From the IMG/VR virus record IMGVR_UViG_3300046466_000497, positions 1 through 22,452 of that record: a stretch of 22,452 bases of DNA; one strand, given 5' to 3'. Origin of the DNA: a virus. A model generated the notes under the pieces. That model saw only the letters and a list, made by a program, of their open reading frames with translations, did no database searches and was not told where the DNA came from. Shown in pieces: positions 13,597-22,452 of this stretch (positions within the stretch are counted from its first letter, which is position 1; the number at the start of each line of letters is the position of its first letter). Position numbers and translations under genes: made by a program.

Positions 13597-14403
13597 TTAC
13601 CCTATCATCATTGCTGGATTTAATTCAAATGAACTTCTTATCTCTAACTCTAATTTTTCTATATCACTAATAGCATCCATATATATTTGTTGACCGTTTA
13701 ATGTGACACCACCTATCATTTGTACACCACCAAATTTTGATAGATTAGCACCCCATTGTTTTTTAAATAAAGCAGTCACATATCTTTTTAAAAATATATC
13801 GTTAAACACATCCGTATTTGTTGCTGGGTCTAATTTTCTATATGCTTCAATTACAAGATATTCACCTACTTGTAAATCATTTTTCCAATCCATATCAACA
13901 TACAATTTATTTTCGTGTTGATTAAATCTCATAGGTTTTTCACCAACTAAAATGTGGTCTAAAAAATCTAAATGTCTTAATACAACATCATAGTTAACAA
14001 TTGATGTGGATGAAAAATCATACAAATCATTTAATCTTAATTGATATCTAACATCAAATAGATTTAGATTACCTTTATTTGAAAACGGAAAGATATTAAT
14101 AATAGATATAATAGAACTAGGTATTGATAGAAAATTTTGTCCTTCTTTCCAACTAGTAGTCACAGAGTCAGCTGTAGCTGATTCAGTAGAATCAGTTGTC
14201 ATTCTATCTTTATCCGCTTGTGTATATTGATATTTTAAATATGTTCTTTTTACACCATCATAATGGTATTGAGCAAAGTATTGTAATGCCTCATCAATTC
14301 TATCTTCAAGTTGGTCATCATCTGCGTTTATTTCAATTACAGGCTTACCTAATGCTCTTAAAGCATATTGTTTTAAATTCTCTCTTGTTGCTGGTTCTGC
14401 CAT
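13597..14403 (-). CDS. 13: Neck protein (T4 gp13-like)
   Basis: Head completion and neck protein working with gp14. The 268-aa product (T4 gp13 is 309 aa) starts MAEPATRENLKQYALRALGK and shows the conserved DDDQLEDRIDEALQYFAQYHYDG early. Typical later blocks are QNFLSIPSSIISIINIFPF and the C-terminal FLKRYVTALFKKQWGANLSKF, then GGVTLNGQQIY. It is the first gene of the T4-order neck-to-capsid series here. It has its own late promoter (14424-14431) directly after the bilin reductase stop codon, which separates it from the pigment genes. Confidence 0.95.
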   Translation of the reverse strand: MAEPATRENLKQYALRALGKPVIEINADDDQLEDRIDEALQYFAQYHYDGVKRTYLKYQYTQADKDRMTTDSTESATADSVTTSWKEGQNFLSIPSSIISIINIFPFSNKGNLNLFDVRYQLRLNDLYDFSSTSIVNYDVVLRHLDFLDHILVGEKPMRFNQHENKLYVDMDWKNDLQVGEYLVIEAYRKLDPATNTDVFNDIFLKRYVTALFKKQWGANLSKFGGVQMIGGVTLNGQQIYMDAISDIEKLELEIRSSFELNPAMMIG

Positions 14404-14408
14404 TTGTT

Positions 14409-14424
14409 ATACCTTTTCTGGTAT
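14409..14424 (-). promoter_or_regulatory. Small hairpin over the gene 13 ribosome-binding site
   Basis: ATACC (14409-14413) and GGTAT (14420-14424) are inverted copies with a 6-base spacer. On the minus strand the AAAAGG ribosome-binding site straddles loop and stem. A transcript starting a few bases after the late promoter would lack the 5' arm, so only read-through RNA could fold it. Function is inferred. Confidence 0.35.
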
Positions 14425-14431
14425 ATTTATA
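14424..14431 (-). promoter_or_regulatory. T4-type late promoter for gene 13
   Basis: Exact TATAAATA on the minus strand, 20 bases before the gene 13 start and 7 bases after the bilin reductase stop codon. Confidence 0.8.
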
Positions 14432-14438
14432 ATAGTTA

Positions 14439-15143
14439 TTACAGATAGGGTTGGTTTTCTGACACTATCGGGAATAGGTTGTCGGAACAGAATAATTTAA
14501 TATCTTCATCTGGTAAACCAAGAGATTGCATAACTCTAGGTGTATGTGGATTCTTTTGTTGGTGTTCAGAATAGTAATTTTGTGCTTTAATTACATCTTT
14601 CATTTCTGCTTCACCTTCGTGATTTCTAATTTTATCTATATAATTATTTAAATTAGAAACAGCCATATTACAAATTTTATTTAATTCATCTTCTTCTCTT
14701 ACATTACCAGCGGCTATCATTCCACCACTAAAAATAGCCTTTGCCCAATCTGGTAATTCTCTCTCTTTGCTAGGTTTGTACCATTTATTTTCTTCTATAA
14801 ACCACTTTGTTAATGGGTGGTCTTTTTGTAATAATGGACTAAAATCGTGAAAAGCACCTGTTACCTTTTTTTGACCTGCAATGATATCAAAACCATAAAT
14901 CGGTCCACCATTAGTTAACATAGGAAAAAGGCATAGATGAGCCATCCATAAACCTTTAGATTCTCTTACATCAACAACATCTAAATGAGCTCTTCTAATA
15001 TATCTATTATTCCAGGTTCTATTAACCCAGCCTAACTTTTCATCATTGAATCTTTCCATACCTGGTTCATCATATTCAACCAGATTTTTATTTAAGACTT
15101 CAATAGTCTCATTTTGCCACTTGATTAGTCTGTCCCAAATCAT
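14439..15143 (-). CDS. pcyX: Ferredoxin-dependent bilin reductase (PcyX/PcyA-like)
   Basis: Reduces biliverdin to a phycobilin using electrons from reduced ferredoxin. The 234-aa protein aligns by eye with PcyA. AHLDVVDV (52-59) matches the HLE segment, MAHLCLFP (67-74) carries the conserved catalytic His69, PIYGFDII (81-88) the conserved Asp86, HDFSPL follows, and RELPDWAKAIFSG matches the later PcyA block. At the Glu76 position of PcyA an Asp (Asp55) is found. PebS of cyanophages looks far more distant. Viral PcyX enzymes from ocean metagenomes are PcyA-like yet make phycoerythrobilin; this product is the likely one here but unproven. The start at 15143 is preferred because AAGGAAA lies just upstream. 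An in-frame ATG at 15203 would add 20 residues lacking family similarity. It overlaps the heme oxygenase gene by 35 bases. Confidence 0.9.
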   Translation of the reverse strand: MIWDRLIKWQNETIEVLNKNLVEYDEPGMERFNDEKLGWVNRTWNNRYIRRAHLDVVDVRESKGLWMAHLCLFPMLTNGGPIYGFDIIAGQKKVTGAFHDFSPLLQKDHPLTKWFIEENKWYKPSKERELPDWAKAIFSGGMIAAGNVREEDELNKICNMAVSNLNNYIDKIRNHEGEAEMKDVIKAQNYYSEHQQKNPHTPRVMQSLGLPDEDIKLFCSDNLFPIVSENQPYL

Positions 15144-15711
15144 ACATTTCCTTAAATAATTTTGTTGCGTTTTCAAAACAATATATTGCTTCAGGCAATA
15201 CATTTACTTCATATAAATTTAAATAACTTTCAACTCTTTCTTTTACTATTCTTTTATATTCTTTAATTTCACCGTGTTTAAAAATATAATATCTATTAGG
15301 TCCCGGCGTTTTCTTCATAATCATTTGACCACCAGATAAATCACCTAAATGTCTAACATAAACGTGAGCATATAGTTTTTCGTTTTCACCTCTAATAGTA
15401 TCTAAATGTTTAACGTATGCTTTTGTGCTTTCTGTTTCAATAGGAGGATTATCTGTATCGCCCCATAAAGCCTTATAATCATAGAAAATATGAGGTGCTC
15501 TTGGTAAAGATTTTGTATCCATAAACAAAGAACTTTCTAAACAATATTCTTCTAATTTACCATAACAAATTAACTGATTATACAAATAAGTTGCATATAA
15601 TTTTTCGTCAATATTACCTGATAATAAAAGTCCCACAAATTGTTGCCTTTCAGCATTTTTATGATACTCCCAAGTCAGGTCTTTTATTCTATATTTCTTC
15701 TCTTGTTCCAT
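15109..15711 (-). CDS. ho1: Heme oxygenase
   Basis: Opens heme to biliverdin IX-alpha, releasing CO and ferrous iron, with electrons usually from ferredoxin in bacteria. The 200-aa product shows the proximal heme ligand region DLTWEYHKNAE with His17 and the family signature HVYVRHLGDLSGGQMI (116-131), including the distal-helix Gly residues and Asp124. Length is near that of bacterial and cyanophage enzymes (about 215-240 aa), slightly short. No membrane anchor is present, so it is soluble and cytoplasmic. It overlaps the 218-aa gene by 23 bases and the bilin reductase by 35, so the product biliverdin would be made beside its consumer. The ribosome-binding site is weak (GAAG), consistent with coupling to the upstream gene. 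Confidence 0.96.
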   Translation of the reverse strand: MEQEKKYRIKDLTWEYHKNAERQQFVGLLLSGNIDEKLYATYLYNQLICYGKLEEYCLESSLFMDTKSLPRAPHIFYDYKALWGDTDNPPIETESTKAYVKHLDTIRGENEKLYAHVYVRHLGDLSGGQMIMKKTPGPNRYYIFKHGEIKEYKRIVKERVESYLNLYEVNVLPEAIYCFENATKLFKEMYDLGQTNQVAK

Positions 15712-16345
15712 CTTCGTTTATTTGATATCCTTCTTGCCAAGCACCAATCTGTTTATCAGCTTCTTTCAATCGCCATTCGCCCATTTCCATAGTTTCTTTA
15801 AATACATCTGGTGTTGCAATAACAAAATCAGATACATTAACAATTGCACTAACAACTTTTATTTGTACTCTTTTAAATTTTTTAGGATTGTATTTAAATA
15901 GTGGTAATGTAAATGCTTTTATATCTTCATCAACATTTAACAATTGTGAATACATAGATAACATTGTAATATAAACAACTTGTAAATCAAACCAATCTTT
16001 TGGTATATCTACTCTATGTTGTTTAATACCATAAAAATTAAATTGTTCACCAACATATGAAAAACCATCTAATTGTGTTGGTAAAGTTGCGTGAGCTGGA
16101 GCACCACCTATTTCGGGTGTTAAATCAAACGGCCACTTATCTTTCCACATTTTAAATAATTCAGGACCTTGATTTAAATGTTCAAAATCAATTTCTGTCA
16201 TCATACCTTCAAGTCTATCAATATAAGTCCAAACATTCCACCAATATTGTGCTTGTTGTTCTTTAGGATAAATTGAAGTATCTGAAAAGTCAGAAAAGAC
16301 TTTATGCTTTTTAAAATTTTTTAGATTTAAATTTGTTTTATACAT
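15689..16345 (-). CDS. Unrecognised 218-aa protein upstream of the pigment genes
   Basis: I do not recognise a family. The protein is soluble, with no signal peptide or membrane span. It is aromatic-rich (AQYWWNVWTYIDRLEGMM near residues 32-49, FKMWKDKWPFDL, GFSYVGEQFNFYG) and has a helical-looking C-terminal half, including VVYITMLSMYSQLLNVDED and IKVVSAIVNVSDFVIATPDVF. It ends with an acidic tail that overlaps the heme oxygenase start by 23 bases. It is the first gene after the late-promoter-like element at 16382-16389. It could be a structural protein of the fibre or neck region after which the pigment genes were inserted, or part of the pigment cassette. The overlap favours co-expression with the heme oxygenase but does not decide function. 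Confidence 0.85.
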   Translation of the reverse strand: MYKTNLNLKNFKKHKVFSDFSDTSIYPKEQQAQYWWNVWTYIDRLEGMMTEIDFEHLNQGPELFKMWKDKWPFDLTPEIGGAPAHATLPTQLDGFSYVGEQFNFYGIKQHRVDIPKDWFDLQVVYITMLSMYSQLLNVDEDIKAFTLPLFKYNPKKFKRVQIKVVSAIVNVSDFVIATPDVFKETMEMGEWRLKEADKQIGAWQEGYQINEDGTREEI

Positions 16346-16370: not shown

Positions 16371-16384
16371 ATACTATAAAGTAT
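16371..16384. repeat. Small inverted repeat in the leader of the 218-aa gene
   Basis: ATACT (16371-16375) and AGTAT (16380-16384) with a 4-base spacer form a short stem next to the late-promoter-like element. Weak and AT-rich; reported as a possible structure only. Confidence 0.3.
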
Positions 16385-16389
16385 TTATT
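16382..16389 (-). promoter_or_regulatory. Late-promoter-like element of the pigment gene unit
   Basis: The minus strand reads AATAAATA, one base different from TATAAATA. It overlaps the stop codon of the upstream fibre-like gene and lies 37 bases before the 218-aa gene start. It is the only candidate promoter for the 218-aa, heme oxygenase and bilin reductase genes. Confidence 0.5.
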
Positions 16390-18625
16390 AATCTCCTGGA
16401 GGAGATTTCATATGAGCACGATAGTTATTACTACCCCAAGATGAACCAGTTGCTGACTGATATCTATAAGACATACCTTCGTATAGGTGTGTTTGGTTAT
16501 TTGGTTGATAACCTGATAGGAATATTTTACCGTCCCAATTTCTGTATGCATAGTTTTGAGCTGTAGGGTAACCATAGCAGTGTAAATCTGTTAATCTACT
16601 ATTCATTGGTTGTACACCTCTTCTTTTTCTATGTCTGTTTGTAGAGTTATCTTCAAAACCTTGAGAAGGCATATGCCAATATCCATCAGAACCGTTATTA
16701 GGTGAATCAGAATGACCTGAAGCCGTAAATGCATAGTCATAAGCATTACCGTACCAGAAACTACCGTCTTCATCTAATATAATTGGTGAGTCATAAATGT
16801 ATGAACCATCACCTCTTCCTTCGTTTTGACCTGTAACCCATTTAGTATATGCTGGTCCTCTTACGTGAGAGAACATTCCGTGAATACCACCAGAGTTGTA
16901 CCAGTAACCTTGTTGTGAACGTGAACCTCTTGTACCATAAGTACCATAGTTACCATCAGAAATCCATAACATACCTGTTGATTTTTGTCTTATGTACATC
17001 CATTTATGTTCATCACCACCTAACCAGAATTCATCTACATCTCCGTTTAAATGAAAGTCTGCTCTTTTAAACATAGACTGATATCTAGTTGAGTTATCAC
17101 CTAATCCATAAAAACCTGGTGCCTGTCCACTTGTATAGTAACCTGTGTACCATAAGTAGCCTTCGCCATCAAGTACCCAAGTACCTACGTGTGATTGAGT
17201 TGAATAACCCCAATGTTGTAGCATTTTCATACCACCGTATTTGTTCCAATCTACTTCAACTCTTCTAGGAATATAATAGTAATATGTTCCTTCGGAAGTG
17301 TGTGAGTTAGAACCTACACCAGCACCACCGTGAACTGATTGACCCCAGAACCATAACCAACCATCTTCGTCTAATGCGTGGAATGATGGCTCAGTACAGC
17401 CCTCTGCCCACATATCAACGATTCTTTTGTTGTTAAAAAATTCTTGAGGAATTTTAATAGGTCTTTTTACGTTAACTGAATAGAAAGCAAATGAGTAAGG
17501 CGAACCACCAGTAAAGTCAGTTGAGTTGTTTATTCCTGGGTTACCACCACCAAATTGTGCTTGATTGTTTCTACCCCAAGTCCATACTGAACCGTCTTCG
17601 CCTAATGCAAATTGTTGATTACCTTCAGAGTTTTGACCTTGACCTGAAGAACCTATTTTTACAATTTTTGTATTGTTAAATGAACGTATAGTTTCACCTA
17701 ACCAATCTACCGTATCATCTGCTGATACTCTATTTGCATAATATCTATCTGTTGTATTTGTTACCGCTATGTGATGACCTAAATCGTATGTTGAGTTATC
17801 ACCAGCAGAATAAACTTCTCCGTTATTCATTAGCCAGAAACTAGAGTTTGTGCTTGATACGTGTTGAATTACTTTTGGTGCCTTACCATCAGGAGTTACC
17901 ATTCTACCTGTATGTTCAGTTTGTGTTAAATCTTTATTGTCAGTAGAAACCATCCAGTCAACCATAGTAAATCCAGTATAACGACTTCTACCCATTCTTG
18001 AATTTCCTTCTTGACCGTCACCAAATCCCATTTGTCCAGTAGAGTTATTACCACCTTGACCTACGAAATCACCATTTGATTCAATTACACCCATTGTATA
18101 GTTGGCTTGTCTTTCGTATGAGTTTCTACCCATATTGTATTTCCACCCTAAAGGAGCTCTGTTAGTGTATGATACAACTTTGTTTCTATCTGGATATGCA
18201 AAAGGTGATTCATAAATCATCACCCAATATTCTGAATCTCTTCCGTCGTGTTCTACAACCCAAGTATTATATTTTCTTGTTCTTTTTATACATTGGTAAA
18301 TTCTTCTACCAACCGTAGTCATTTCACCTGGCTCGTATTGTCTCCACATTTCCCATTCGCCAATATCGTCTGTTGAACGTAAAAATAATTGCCAATATTT
18401 TGCATTATCTGGTCTAAAAGATTTTTGAACCAATCTAGGTGGGTCAAAAGAATAGTTGTTAGTGTTAACTAAACCATCTATTGATATTGAATATGCAATA
18501 GGACAATCTTGAATACATCTATAAGACTTACCTTTCCAAGAAACGATATCGTTTTTAGAATAAGCAGTCCTATCTTTCCAAGGTCCTTGCCACTTTAGTT
18601 TAAAATCTTTTAAATCAAAAGACAT
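16388..18625 (-). CDS. RCC1-repeat fibre/adhesin-like protein (745 aa)
   Basis: Probable tail fibre or baseplate-associated receptor-binding protein. Residues 11-82 (WQGPWKDRTAYSKNDIVSW, then GKSYRC and YWQLF) and about 92-137 (YEPGEMTTVGRRIYQC, then YWVMI) resemble small carbohydrate-binding modules of the chitin-binding type. From about 180 to 740 come repeats of the RCC1 kind, each with a Gly-x-Val/Leu-Trp strand and often a Gly-Asp/Asn-Gly turn. Examples are GDFVGQGGNNSTGQMGFGDG, GSVWTWGRNNQAQFGGG and GWLWFWGQSVHGGAGVG. About seven or eight units suggest one beta-propeller. It is paralogous to the larger gene two positions upstream. AAGGAAA precedes the ATG. Receptor specificity cannot be read from sequence. 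Confidence 0.85.
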   Translation of the reverse strand: MSFDLKDFKLKWQGPWKDRTAYSKNDIVSWKGKSYRCIQDCPIAYSISIDGLVNTNNYSFDPPRLVQKSFRPDNAKYWQLFLRSTDDIGEWEMWRQYEPGEMTTVGRRIYQCIKRTRKYNTWVVEHDGRDSEYWVMIYESPFAYPDRNKVVSYTNRAPLGWKYNMGRNSYERQANYTMGVIESNGDFVGQGGNNSTGQMGFGDGQEGNSRMGRSRYTGFTMVDWMVSTDNKDLTQTEHTGRMVTPDGKAPKVIQHVSSTNSSFWLMNNGEVYSAGDNSTYDLGHHIAVTNTTDRYYANRVSADDTVDWLGETIRSFNNTKIVKIGSSGQGQNSEGNQQFALGEDGSVWTWGRNNQAQFGGGNPGINNSTDFTGGSPYSFAFYSVNVKRPIKIPQEFFNNKRIVDMWAEGCTEPSFHALDEDGWLWFWGQSVHGGAGVGSNSHTSEGTYYYYIPRRVEVDWNKYGGMKMLQHWGYSTQSHVGTWVLDGEGYLWYTGYYTSGQAPGFYGLGDNSTRYQSMFKRADFHLNGDVDEFWLGGDEHKWMYIRQKSTGMLWISDGNYGTYGTRGSRSQQGYWYNSGGIHGMFSHVRGPAYTKWVTGQNEGRGDGSYIYDSPIILDEDGSFWYGNAYDYAFTASGHSDSPNNGSDGYWHMPSQGFEDNSTNRHRKRRGVQPMNSRLTDLHCYGYPTAQNYAYRNWDGKIFLSGYQPNNQTHLYEGMSYRYQSATGSSWGSNNYRAHMKSPPGD
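16390..16407. repeat. Inverted repeat at the end of the 745-aa gene
   Basis: AATCTCCT (16390-16397) and AGGAGATT (16400-16407) are perfect inverted copies separated by two bases. They cover the last codons and part of the stop of the fibre-like gene. No U tract follows on the minus strand, so it is not a standard terminator. It may protect or process the 3' end. Confidence 0.5.
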
Positions 18626-19110: not shown

Positions 19111-22100
19111 TTATCTTCCTTGACCTGTTGATGTTGGTTGGCCATTTGGTGATGTCCAACTATGTCCCCACCAGTTATGTGTTGAAGACAACCAGTTTGA
19201 ACGACCCCAATAATATATTTTTCCGTACTCATCAATAAAGTGGTAAGTACCTGCATATTCAGCAGAGCCTTGGTCATCTGTTGTAATTCTCATTGTAACC
19301 GGTTTTGCGTTAGGTAAATACCAGTGGAAAGGATGATAGTTACCATCTTCACCAGTCCAGTTTGTACCTGCCTGTGGGTGCAACATAGAATTTCTTGAGT
19401 CATAACCATAACAGAATGATTCGCCACTATCAGTTAACCAGAATGTTCTAGCTTGGTCTGAATAGTTGCAAGAAGTTTTAACTTCTTTTAAATTTGTAAC
19501 CTTTTGTACAACTGCTGGAGTGGTAACGTTACCTGTATTACCTGTTCCTAATGCGTAATATGTACCTGCGTGGCCATATCCGTAAGTTGTACCATCTTTT
19601 GTTCTAAAGTAACCTGATTTGTAACCATTGTAATATTGTATCCAAATGTCAACAATATCTCCGTTAGGTGTAGTTTCGTTTTTAGTAAATGTTGTTGTAT
19701 TAGTTGTAGTACCATTACCAAAGTTACCATAGTTGTTTTCACCACACCAGTGTGTGTAACCATTACCATCTAGGATTACAACCCAAGTATCTTCTTCATT
19801 TCCTTCACACATAAACACAGCGATACCATTATTAGCAACTGGATCCCAACCTGTCATTTTTATAGGTCTGTATTTGTCAGTTGTTGTACCATCACCTAAT
19901 TGTCCGATACCGTTATTACCCCAAGCATATATTTGGTCACTTGCTGTTCTAGCATATGAACTATCACCTGTTGTAGCGATATCAATAATTTTTTCGTTGT
20001 CAAAATACTTACTAGGTATTCTGTAAGGTGCTGTTTTGTTTTGTGTTCTACCATCACCTAATTGACCCTCGTTATTATAACCCCAAGTCCAAACATAACC
20101 TAATTCATCTAAACACATAATATGTTTAGTGTTGTTCCAAGGATAAGTTGTGGCTTTAATAACTCTTGTATCTTCTAAACCGTGAACTCTGTAAAAACCA
20201 TTTCTGTCTGATTGAGTATTACCGTGTCCCATTTCACCATTTGATTGTTCACCGTTTCTGTATAATTCTCCATTTTCCATAAGAAGCATACAACTATCTC
20301 TTTCTTCGTGTAATTGTATAATTCTTGGTGTCGTAAATTCTTGTCTTCTAGGATTTGTGTGATGACCTCTCATTTCTTGGTAACCACCTGCGTTCATATC
20401 CTCTGAACGTCTGTATTCCCAAAATCTCATATTCATTTCACCAAAGTATGATGAGTAATGAGATTGTGAATCTTGGAATCCTGTTCTAGGATATCCCATA
20501 CCCCATAGAACACCGTTTTTATCAATGTATCTATTAGCATTATCAATACTCATAGCTACGTTATTGTGGTGTTTGTAAGGCCAATGCATTGGTTCTGGAC
20601 CAAAGAACATAGCAGCATTTTCTTCTTGGTTAACCATTCTACCAAAAGATTGCCAATCATTGAAATATGATTGTACGTGTGCTGGATAATCTTCGTAATC
20701 TTCTTTAATTAATCTACCACTTGTTGTTGTAGATTTTGCCATCAAAGGAGACCTTGTTCTTTCTTGAGGACCAAAATGAGGATATCTACCTTGCGTATCT
20801 CTTAAAGCTCTGTACATACCTGTAGGACCTTTGTAAATTATTTCACCATCACTTCTTCTTTTTTGTGGTCTGTAAATTACAACATCATTATAAGAATAGT
20901 GAGTATAAGGATTATATTCACCTCTAAATTTAATTCCTGTTTGTAGTCTGTCCCAATGTTTATGTCCTCTCCAAGATTGTTCTATGTCAAAACCTATGCT
21001 TGCGTTATTACCATACATAGCAGTTTTGCCTGAAGCTGAACAATAAGGATATATTTTTGTATATGAATTTCTGTAACCGATAGGTATATAAATTTCTACA
21101 ACTCTATCTTGGTTTTTTTCAAAAGATAATTCACTACCACCTCTTGTAGAACCATCTTCAGTAGTGTATGACGGCATATCACCAGTATAATTACCACCAC
21201 TATTTGCAAAAGTATTATTTAATGAATTGATGTATTGTGCTTCTGTAACCTGTCTGTTATTTAAGAAGTATCTTACGTAACCATTTTTACCTGCACCTCT
21301 CCACATTGGAATATTTGTTGGAACATAAGACCTTGCTCTTGTTTGTGGAGCATTTGTCTCTGCTGACCAACCCATACCTGAATGTGATGTACAATAGTAG
21401 TAAAGTGTTGGTGTACTTGCTCTTACTTTAATTTCTGTATATGCACCTTTTTTACCTGGTGTACCAACAACGGTTACGCCAGTTGTGTATGCTGAACCTG
21501 AAGCGTGTGTTCCATTAGCAGTTGTTGATAATTTTAAAGGATGACCTGTATTTGAACTATCTGATTGGTCAAATCTATAAGTTTTACCCTCTGTTAAATT
21601 TAATGCAACATTAGCCGTAGCGGTTACACCGTCTATTGAATATTTGTTTGTAGAACCTGTATTGTAATAAGGGTGGTCACTAGGGTTACCTGAAACTACT
21701 GCAACTTCAAAAATTCTTTCGTCAACAGCAGTTGGGTCTATCATATTTGGTAAATGAAAAGTTGTACTATCATTTGATACCGTTTCGTTATTTGGACCTC
21801 TTATAATTTCTGAAAATGTAAAACTAGTTGAAGCACCTGCACCACCCATTCTTGTATCTTCAGTATTTGCACCTGTGCTTGATAGATATAATGGATAGAA
21901 TACACCTGATTGACCATTTGAATTAGTACCTACAACATAGTAAGGACCATCATTGTCAGCCGCAAGTGAAGTACCTGAACCGTGAGTACCATCAACGGTT
22001 GTTGAAAACGCTAATGGAAAAGTTTTATTTGATTCGTCTCTTTGATGAAATCTATATTTTTCACCTTCTCTAAAGTGAGTAAAGTTTCTGTCGCCATCTT

Positions 22101-22452
22101 GTTCTTGGCCTAAATCTATACTTGGTAATCTATTATCAAATTTAAATTGATTTGAAGGAGAAGTTACCGCTTCCACATAAAAGTTATTATGAACTGGTGT
22201 GTAAGATTGATAGAAAGCATTTTTTTCTGTATTTAATTCACCATATCCATAGAAATTACTTCTATCACCTTGAGCGTAATCTTCTTTTTCGTGTAGTAAA
22301 TGATATTGATAATCCAAGAACATACCATTTGAAATATTACTATAATTAGATTGTTCAAAAGGCATTCTTGTAGAATTTTGTGTATTTTCATCACTACCAT
22401 ATCTTGATGTGTTTACAATTCTTCTACCTGTAGCGTCATTTCTTTGGTCGTA
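19111..22452 (-). CDS. Large RCC1-repeat fibre/adhesin-like protein with cupredoxin-like domains, N-terminus cut by the window
   Basis: The frame is open to the right edge, adding at least 29 residues before the first internal Met at 22365, so the true start lies outside (at least 1113 aa visible). Counting from that Met: residues 62-165 are a degenerate, and 218-336 an intact, copy of a cupredoxin-like domain common in marine phage structural proteins (KTYRFDQSDSSNTGHPLKLS, then YYYCTSHSGMGW). Residues about 476-525 resemble a carbohydrate-binding module (YSYNDVVIY, then GMYRALRD). About 606-1065 are RCC1-type repeats (GYVWTWGYNNEGQLGDG, QIYAWGNNGIGQLGDGTT and others), probably one propeller. 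It is paralogous to the 745-aa protein. A tail fibre or other exposed adhesin is the best guess. Confidence 0.85.
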   Translation of the reverse strand, partial: YDQRNDATGRRIVNTSRYGSDENTQNSTRMPFEQSNYSNISNGMFLDYQYHLLHEKEDYAQGDRSNFYGYGELNTEKNAFYQSYTPVHNNFYVEAVTSPSNQFKFDNRLPSIDLGQEQDGDRNFTHFREGEKYRFHQRDESNKTFPLAFSTTVDGTHGSGTSLAADNDGPYYVVGTNSNGQSGVFYPLYLSSTGANTEDTRMGGAGASTSFTFSEIIRGPNNETVSNDSTTFHLPNMIDPTAVDERIFEVAVVSGNPSDHPYYNTGSTNKYSIDGVTATANVALNLTEGKTYRFDQSDSSNTGHPLKLSTTANGTHASGSAYTTGVTVVGTPGKKGAYTEIKVRASTPTLYYYCTSHSGMGWSAETNAPQTRARSYVPTNIPMWRGAGKNGYVRYFLNNRQVTEAQYINSLNNTFANSGGNYTGDMPSYTTEDGSTRGGSELSFEKNQDRVVEIYIPIGYRNSYTKIYPYCSASGKTAMYGNNASIGFDIEQSWRGHKHWDRLQTGIKFRGEYNPYTHYSYNDVVIYRPQKRRSDGEIIYKGPTGMYRALRDTQGRYPHFGPQERTRSPLMAKSTTTSGRLIKEDYEDYPAHVQSYFNDWQSFGRMVNQEENAAMFFGPEPMHWPYKHHNNVAMSIDNANRYIDKNGVLWGMGYPRTGFQDSQSHYSSYFGEMNMRFWEYRRSEDMNAGGYQEMRGHHTNPRRQEFTTPRIIQLHEERDSCMLLMENGELYRNGEQSNGEMGHGNTQSDRNGFYRVHGLEDTRVIKATTYPWNNTKHIMCLDELGYVWTWGYNNEGQLGDGRTQNKTAPYRIPSKYFDNEKIIDIATTGDSSYARTASDQIYAWGNNGIGQLGDGTTTDKYRPIKMTGWDPVANNGIAVFMCEGNEEDTWVVILDGNGYTHWCGENNYGNFGNGTTTNTTTFTKNETTPNGDIVDIWIQYYNGYKSGYFRTKDGTTYGYGHAGTYYALGTGNTGNVTTPAVVQKVTNLKEVKTSCNYSDQARTFWLTDSGESFCYGYDSRNSMLHPQAGTNWTGEDGNYHPFHWYLPNAKPVTMRITTDDQGSAEYAGTYHFIDEYGKIYYWGRSNWLSSTHNWWGHSWTSPNGQPTSTGQGR

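Follow-up and report, generated by a model that had tools for sequence, protein, structure and literature searches.

The window, by which we mean the whole stretch of DNA analysed here, is the linear IMG/VR virus record IMGVR_UViG_3300046466_000497 of 22,452 bases, in whose open reading frame list all long genes, from 71 to 22452, lie on the minus strand. Their order is T4-like, running from fibre-type genes through u218, a heme oxygenase (HO), the bilin reductase PcyX, gp13, gp14, a sheath stabiliser, the terminases, sheath, tube, portal, protease and scaffold to the capsid. The features at and around the HO-PcyX pair are as follows:

16388-18625, minus strand: RCC1-like fibre-type protein upstream of u218 (PF25390, 53.3 bits, below the cut-off of 150)
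16382-16389, minus strand: late-promoter-like motif AATAAATA, 44 nt before u218
15689-16345, minus strand: u218, a 218-aa protein overlapping the start of HO, with a predicted heme-oxygenase-like fold
15109-15711, minus strand: heme oxygenase (HO), 200 aa (PF01126, 68.1 bits; H17 and the GDxxGGQ core invariant among 44 relatives)
15109-15143, minus strand: overlap of the HO end with the PcyX start, 35 nt, from the coordinates
14439-15143, minus strand: PcyX, ferredoxin-dependent bilin reductase, 234 aa (5OWG match, tree, D55/H69/D86)
14424-14431, minus strand: late-promoter-like motif TATAAATA, 28 nt before gp13
13597-14403, minus strand: gp13-type neck protein, directly downstream of HO-PcyX (phrog_211, 149 bits; a Mosig neck protein is annotated at the same place)

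The reductase most likely starts at the ATG at 15143, rather than at the mechanical ORF start at 15203, because an MIW start, for which the script looked, is readable in 76 of the 80 distinct homologues. With this start the two genes share the 35 nt listed above, so that the overlap reported by the first-pass annotation stands. That annotation had also placed the pair between fibre-like genes and gp13, which is right for the downstream side, whereas on the upstream side u218, which overlaps HO by 23 nt, intervenes between the fibre-like gene and HO. The window holds two large RCC1-like fibre-type proteins (16388-18625 and 19111-22452), which apparently form the host-recognition side of the virion; the idea that these fibres are iron-loaded was rejected on the HxH counts (1 versus 0.91 in shuffles for one fibre, 0 versus 0.51 for the other).

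Both members of the pair are identified far above chance, the HO against a PF01126 cut-off of 23 bits and the reductase with 58.8 bits to PF05996 (cut-off 31). The proximal His17 and the HLGDLSGGQ signature described earlier are both present, and the PF01126 match, proximal His and GDLSGGQ distal helix together place the protein among the HO-1-type enzymes; the residues invariant in 44 aligned phage HOs are H17, R120, G123, D124, G127, G128 and Q129. In the reductase, His69 and Asp86 were likewise correctly assigned, with numbering from MIWDRL, and it also carries D55, the residue that passages of Wegner 2024 (PMC11480375) describe as PcyX-specific. Its best solved relative, PcyX_EBK42635 (PDB 5OWG, E 2.6e-157), comes from phage sequences of marine metagenomes and is 94.4% identical to it across 234 aa; it has the same D55/H69/D86 set, and none of the differences seen between the two would be expected to alter the chemistry. 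In a tree of 87 rows, comprising the window, EBK42635, 80 distinct homologues (viral loci and Mosig) and five PcyA sequences, with PebA, PebB and PebS outside its sampling, the window reductase and EBK42635 fall into one 21-row clade (support 99/87), and the 82 PcyX rows are split from the five PcyA rows at 100/100, the PcyA branches being long. H69 and D86 are kept in 87/87 rows, and position 55 is D in 81, E in the five PcyA and N in one (L292). The reductase is thus of PcyX type, grouping with a characterised PcyX and apart from PcyA; grouping with PcyA, the outcome named beforehand as contrary to the first reading, did not occur. With D55 present, the rule of Wegner 2024 (PMC11480375) predicts phycoerythrobilin as the product of the enzyme, and homology to characterised relatives makes it very probable that the HO-PcyX pair forms biliverdin and, from it, phycoerythrobilin. 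The cyanophage genes ho1, pcyA and pebS likewise form a heme-to-bilin pathway, although cyanophage PcyA is only 21-25% identical to the window reductase and has E at the D55 position.

The nearest relatives of the pair and of the virion proteins point to the same phage. Among isolates, only Mosig EXVC030M, a Pelagibacter phage whose host is Ca. Pelagibacter ubique, has a close PcyX (82% identity; the 19 further phage records that match stay below 60%), and it also holds the closest HO (63%). There the pair (Mosig_00053, Mosig_00054) occupies the same place before gp13, and the genes from HO through to the capsid gene are arranged as in the window, whereas upstream of it Mosig has 2OG-Fe(II) oxygenases in place of the RCC1-like fibre-type genes and u218. 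Among the 25 matches listed, the window capsid is 93% identical to that of Mosig, 76% to Melnitz, 73% to HTVC008M and at most 69% to cyanophages; the portal is 82% identical to Mosig, 63% to Melnitz and at most 59.5% to cyanophages, HTVC008M not being among the 25 matches listed for it. This affiliation is by pairwise identity of structural proteins rather than by a tree; with capsid, portal, PcyX and HO all nearest to Mosig, a SAR11 phage, it agrees with the earlier view of a phage of an alphaproteobacterium and not a cyanophage, and a firm placement of the markers within cyanophages, the other contrary outcome, did not materialise. A SAR11 host is likely for the window phage, judging from Mosig; Melnitz, a relative, infects OM43.

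The cassette itself has been described: Wegner 2024 (PMC11480375), in the passages concerned, reports a marine hemO-pcyX cassette, likens it to Mosig, places it with pelagiphages by gp13, and describes as enigmatic both what the heme-catabolic phage genes are for and their co-occurrence. The novelty claimed in the first-pass annotation is therefore weakened, and the pair in the window is a further case of the published pelagiphage cassette. The hemO-pcyA/X-valaS arrangement given there for aquatic phages resembles the window in joining HO and PcyX in pelagiphage-like contigs and differs from it in valaS, no AlaS being found in the window ORF list (judged by length and order); AlaS (TIGR01821) was found in 0/15 phage records related to the window. 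Six heme-pathway terms looked for in the main text of the Mosig genome note are all absent.

The distribution of the pair was followed in viral contigs scanned with PcyX (71 loci), with gp13 (best 80 of 595) and with a divergent PcyX (30). When only distinct PcyX with an upstream stretch of 700 nt or longer are counted (11 with less were set aside), HO lies directly upstream in 77/79 and one gene away in 2/79, and the two genes overlap by 1-35 nt in 76 of the 77 relatives with HO directly upstream and by 0 nt in one. Where enough downstream sequence is available, gp13 follows PcyX in 72/74, is one gene away in one and absent in one. The converse scan shows more variety: of the gp13 loci nearest to that of the window (best 80 of 595 confirmed ones), 55 have HO and PcyX, 15 neither, two HO only and one PcyX with a cut HO, while seven are too short, so that both genes are missing in 15 of the 72 loci with enough upstream sequence. 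Because contents differ among loci, and because the place before gp13 holds dioxygenase genes in HTVC008M and a tail fibre in Melnitz, we regard it as a variable cargo site. The two loci with HO directly before gp13 and lacking PcyX are L099:774-1340 and L103:1723-2289.

Promoter-like motifs bear on when the pair would be read. The cyanophage late promoter is given as NATAAATA in the relevant part of PMC2984593, and in the relatives of the window ATAAATA lies at most 60 nt upstream of u218 in 14/15 and of gp13 in 61/61 distinct sequences, as well as upstream of c18, a fibre-side gene of another lineage, in 7/7. The same motif precedes PcyX in 0/62, HO in 3/73, gp14 in 0/71 and gp15 in 0/76, against 2.0% of random windows. 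Counted across the entire window, NATAAATA shows no excess (coding strand, 7 versus 12.4 in shuffles) and TATAAATA occurs 6 times versus 3.5 in shuffles; sigma-70 promoters were rejected as a candidate, the count of 18 being below the expected 20.9. Late-transcription genes are annotated in Mosig. Our prediction from these motifs is that u218, HO and PcyX are expressed late, with the HO-PcyX pair closing a putative late operon.

Beyond the window's lineage, the pair keeps company with genes of protein quality control. The gene ahead of HO in several loci encodes a DUF401 membrane protein (26.8 bits to PF04165, cut-off 24); such a DUF401/TIGR00529-like protein stands just before HO at L110:3644-4675 and in many related loci, and elsewhere occurs with no HO in the stretch, and as an exclusive partner it was rejected, HO being in the stretch in just 34/64 loci. 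Tracing these loci led to Hsp20 (PF00011) and ClpS (PF02617) before HO-PcyX. The ClpS scan took the best 80 of 236 relatives of a query from an HO-linked locus and called ClpS in 77 loci; among the 54 distinct ClpS of these best 80 of 236, HO is near 51 and DnaK near 45, the exact order DnaK-Hsp20-ClpS-HO-PcyX is found in 34, and three lack HO, two of them ending close behind ClpS. In the same set HO is the next gene for 40 distinct ClpS, and 28 of these overlap it by 4 nt; the ClpS-linked reductases, 46-53% identical to that of the window, have D at position 55 in 49/49 distinct sequences. The window itself has no ClpS, and text searches for phage ClpS together with heme oxygenase or a bilin brought up nothing relevant. 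Contigs with the DnaK-Hsp20-ClpS-HO-PcyX cluster are L343, L345, L346, L348, L359, L377 and L385-L464. A gene of tryptophan-halogenase length lies between HO and PcyX in L388-L390, L395-L397, L400, L401, L405 and L409, that of L395 matching PF04820 with 314 bits. A very large phage contig of 372 kb carries Hsp20-ClpS-HO-reductase-RimK (L294:7378-11571); the product of its reductase may differ, since N replaces D at position 55.

On the host side, 297 genomes sampled from the family to which a Ca. Pelagibacter ubique genome belongs were searched with the models for bilin reductase, HO, PHY and phycobiliprotein (PF05996, PF01126, PF00360 and PF00502). None of the genomes matched any of the four, an absence by sample with genome completeness not given; as a control, each of the four models matched at least 1 of 14 control genomes. 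The GAF and phycobiliprotein models gave 0/15 in related phage records, mostly fragments. The search for bilin users consisted of the PHY, GAF and phycobiliprotein models. The earlier statement that the host has no phycobilisomes is supported by the 0/297 for phycobiliprotein. Of six records searched for Fer2 ferredoxin, four gave a match, namely two SAR11 genomes, Mosig and one relative of 109 kb; the other two, fragments of relatives 55 and 63 kb long, gave none.

Taken together, HO would cleave the heme of the host, yielding biliverdin, Fe2+ and CO, and PcyX would reduce biliverdin to phycoerythrobilin with four electrons, probably from a phage or host 2Fe-2S ferredoxin, both genes being read late as the last of the fibre-side operon before neck gene 13; the purpose would be heme disposal and iron recovery during host protein turnover, with phycoerythrobilin as the end product. 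Gene identity, key residues, synteny, purifying selection, the promoter-like motifs and the host-family null are read from the sequences, and timing and purpose are what we infer. Of the uses suggested in the first-pass annotation, we favour heme/iron handling: the best single reading, with a probability of about 0.5, is that heme is disposed of and iron recovered late in infection, since no bilin user turned up in the sampled hosts and the pair is linked to protein turnover in relatives. We counted for it the two loci that keep HO without PcyX before gp13 and the proximity of HO to 51/54 distinct ClpS, mostly with DnaK and Hsp20 (best 80 of 236), and against it the tighter constraint on PcyX than on HO, the absence of an iron gene beside the pair and the start of the ClpS scan from an HO-linked copy. 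No iron genes were seen beside the pair in the window; a ferrochelatase label beside the pair in Mosig (Mosig_00059, L002:16357-17127) was discarded, as it has no Pfam match at E 0.01 and looks doubtful.

The neighbour u218 may bear on a partner protein. It precedes HO in 35 of 36 profile-found loci, the remaining one being cut by the contig end, and among the loci seen it is limited to one lineage of pair carriers. AlphaFold models of two members from the same family alignment have mean pLDDT of 72.7 and 76.4, and their VIA matches are almost all HO, TenA and related proteins, with Z of 8.1-10.8 (a set that includes one ferritin-like row, 4rc5) and 10.1-11.3, values that helical folds may reach by arrangement. 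Foldseek gave nothing significant (best E 1.5-1.6), hhalign against HO a probability of 0.2%, and the u218 profile had no match to PDB chains up to E 10, while u218 itself had none to Pfam. From the models, a HO-like fold appears somewhat more probable than another. The GDLSGGQ distal-helix motif is absent from the 29-row alignment, and a diiron HO-like oxidase was rejected on the single invariant His (H14 in 29 rows), the usual ligand set thus being absent. We regard as rather unlikely a fuller version of heme disposal, a phage programme tied to protein turnover in which, in one broad group, DnaK, Hsp20 and ClpS clustered with HO-PcyX would pass the heme of dismantled hemoproteins to phycoerythrobilin, and in which, in the window's lineage, u218 would have a HO-like fold with no HO activity, bind heme or bilin and work with HO.

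The strongest rival is that phycoerythrobilin itself is wanted and binds an unrecognised phage or host protein, perhaps u218, acting independently of light as a cofactor, inhibitor or scavenger; its standing comes from PcyX being more constrained than HO. Within the window's lineage, median pairwise dN/dS, from pairs that are not independent, is 0.05 for PcyX (28 distinct sequences) and 0.13 for HO (31), beside 0.09 for gp13 (27), gp14 (24) and TerL (11), 0.25 for the RCC1-like fibre (20) and 0.48 for the fast-evolving u218 (31). Over all loci the values are 0.14 for PcyX, 0.19 for HO and 0.11 for gp13, so that PcyX is the most constrained gene measured within the window's lineage only, gp13 being tighter over all loci. 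In both sets PcyX is tighter than HO, as would be expected of a wanted product more than of disposal. The adjacency of HO to PcyX, or its position one gene off, in 79/79 testable cases also counts for this rival, as do the overlap of u218 with HO and the HO-like fold predicted for u218. The confinement of u218, among the loci seen, to one lineage of carriers, and a fold match that is significant neither by Foldseek nor by sequence, weigh the other way, and we judge a wanted phycoerythrobilin rather unlikely.

That the pair serves as an electron sink or antioxidant, bilin reduction using up ferredoxin electrons and the bilin quenching radicals late in infection, is improbable: the bilin reductase family draws its electrons from ferredoxin and two relatives carry one, but the gene neighbourhood gives no specific pointer. 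The first-pass annotation had proposed a chromophore for a photoreceptor, and a light-sensing or light-harvesting role within infected cells might be expected of a cassette from sea-water phages, phycoerythrobilin being a light-harvesting pigment in cyanobacteria; a photoreceptor or antenna partner was nonetheless rejected on the absence of PHY and phycobiliprotein from the 297 host-family genomes and of GAF and phycobiliprotein from the 15 phage records, which leaves this purpose improbable. HO and PcyX can hardly be functionless passengers of the window phage, as the variable cargo site with its 15/72 loci lacking both genes (from the best 80 of 595) might suggest, because both are under purifying selection (dN/dS 0.05 and 0.13) with key residues intact.

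What is new here is the host-family null, the lineage dN/dS, the late-promoter-like motifs, the u218 fold prediction and the DnaK-Hsp20-ClpS-HO-PcyX cluster. No partner protein of the pelagiphage HO-PcyX cassette is known to us so far; u218, should it bind heme or bilin, would become the first. In this marine virus, whose host is probably of SAR11 type, the pair should turn heme into a pink pigment, phycoerythrobilin. The literature has yet to settle what phages of non-photosynthetic bacteria gain from a phycobilin (Wegner 2024, PMC11480375, finds the co-occurrence enigmatic), and the question is narrowed here by the lack of a known bilin-using domain in the sampled host family, by late-looking genes and by the chaperone and protease-adaptor ties in related phages. 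With Mosig and its host in culture, heme disposal and a role in light can be directly distinguished.
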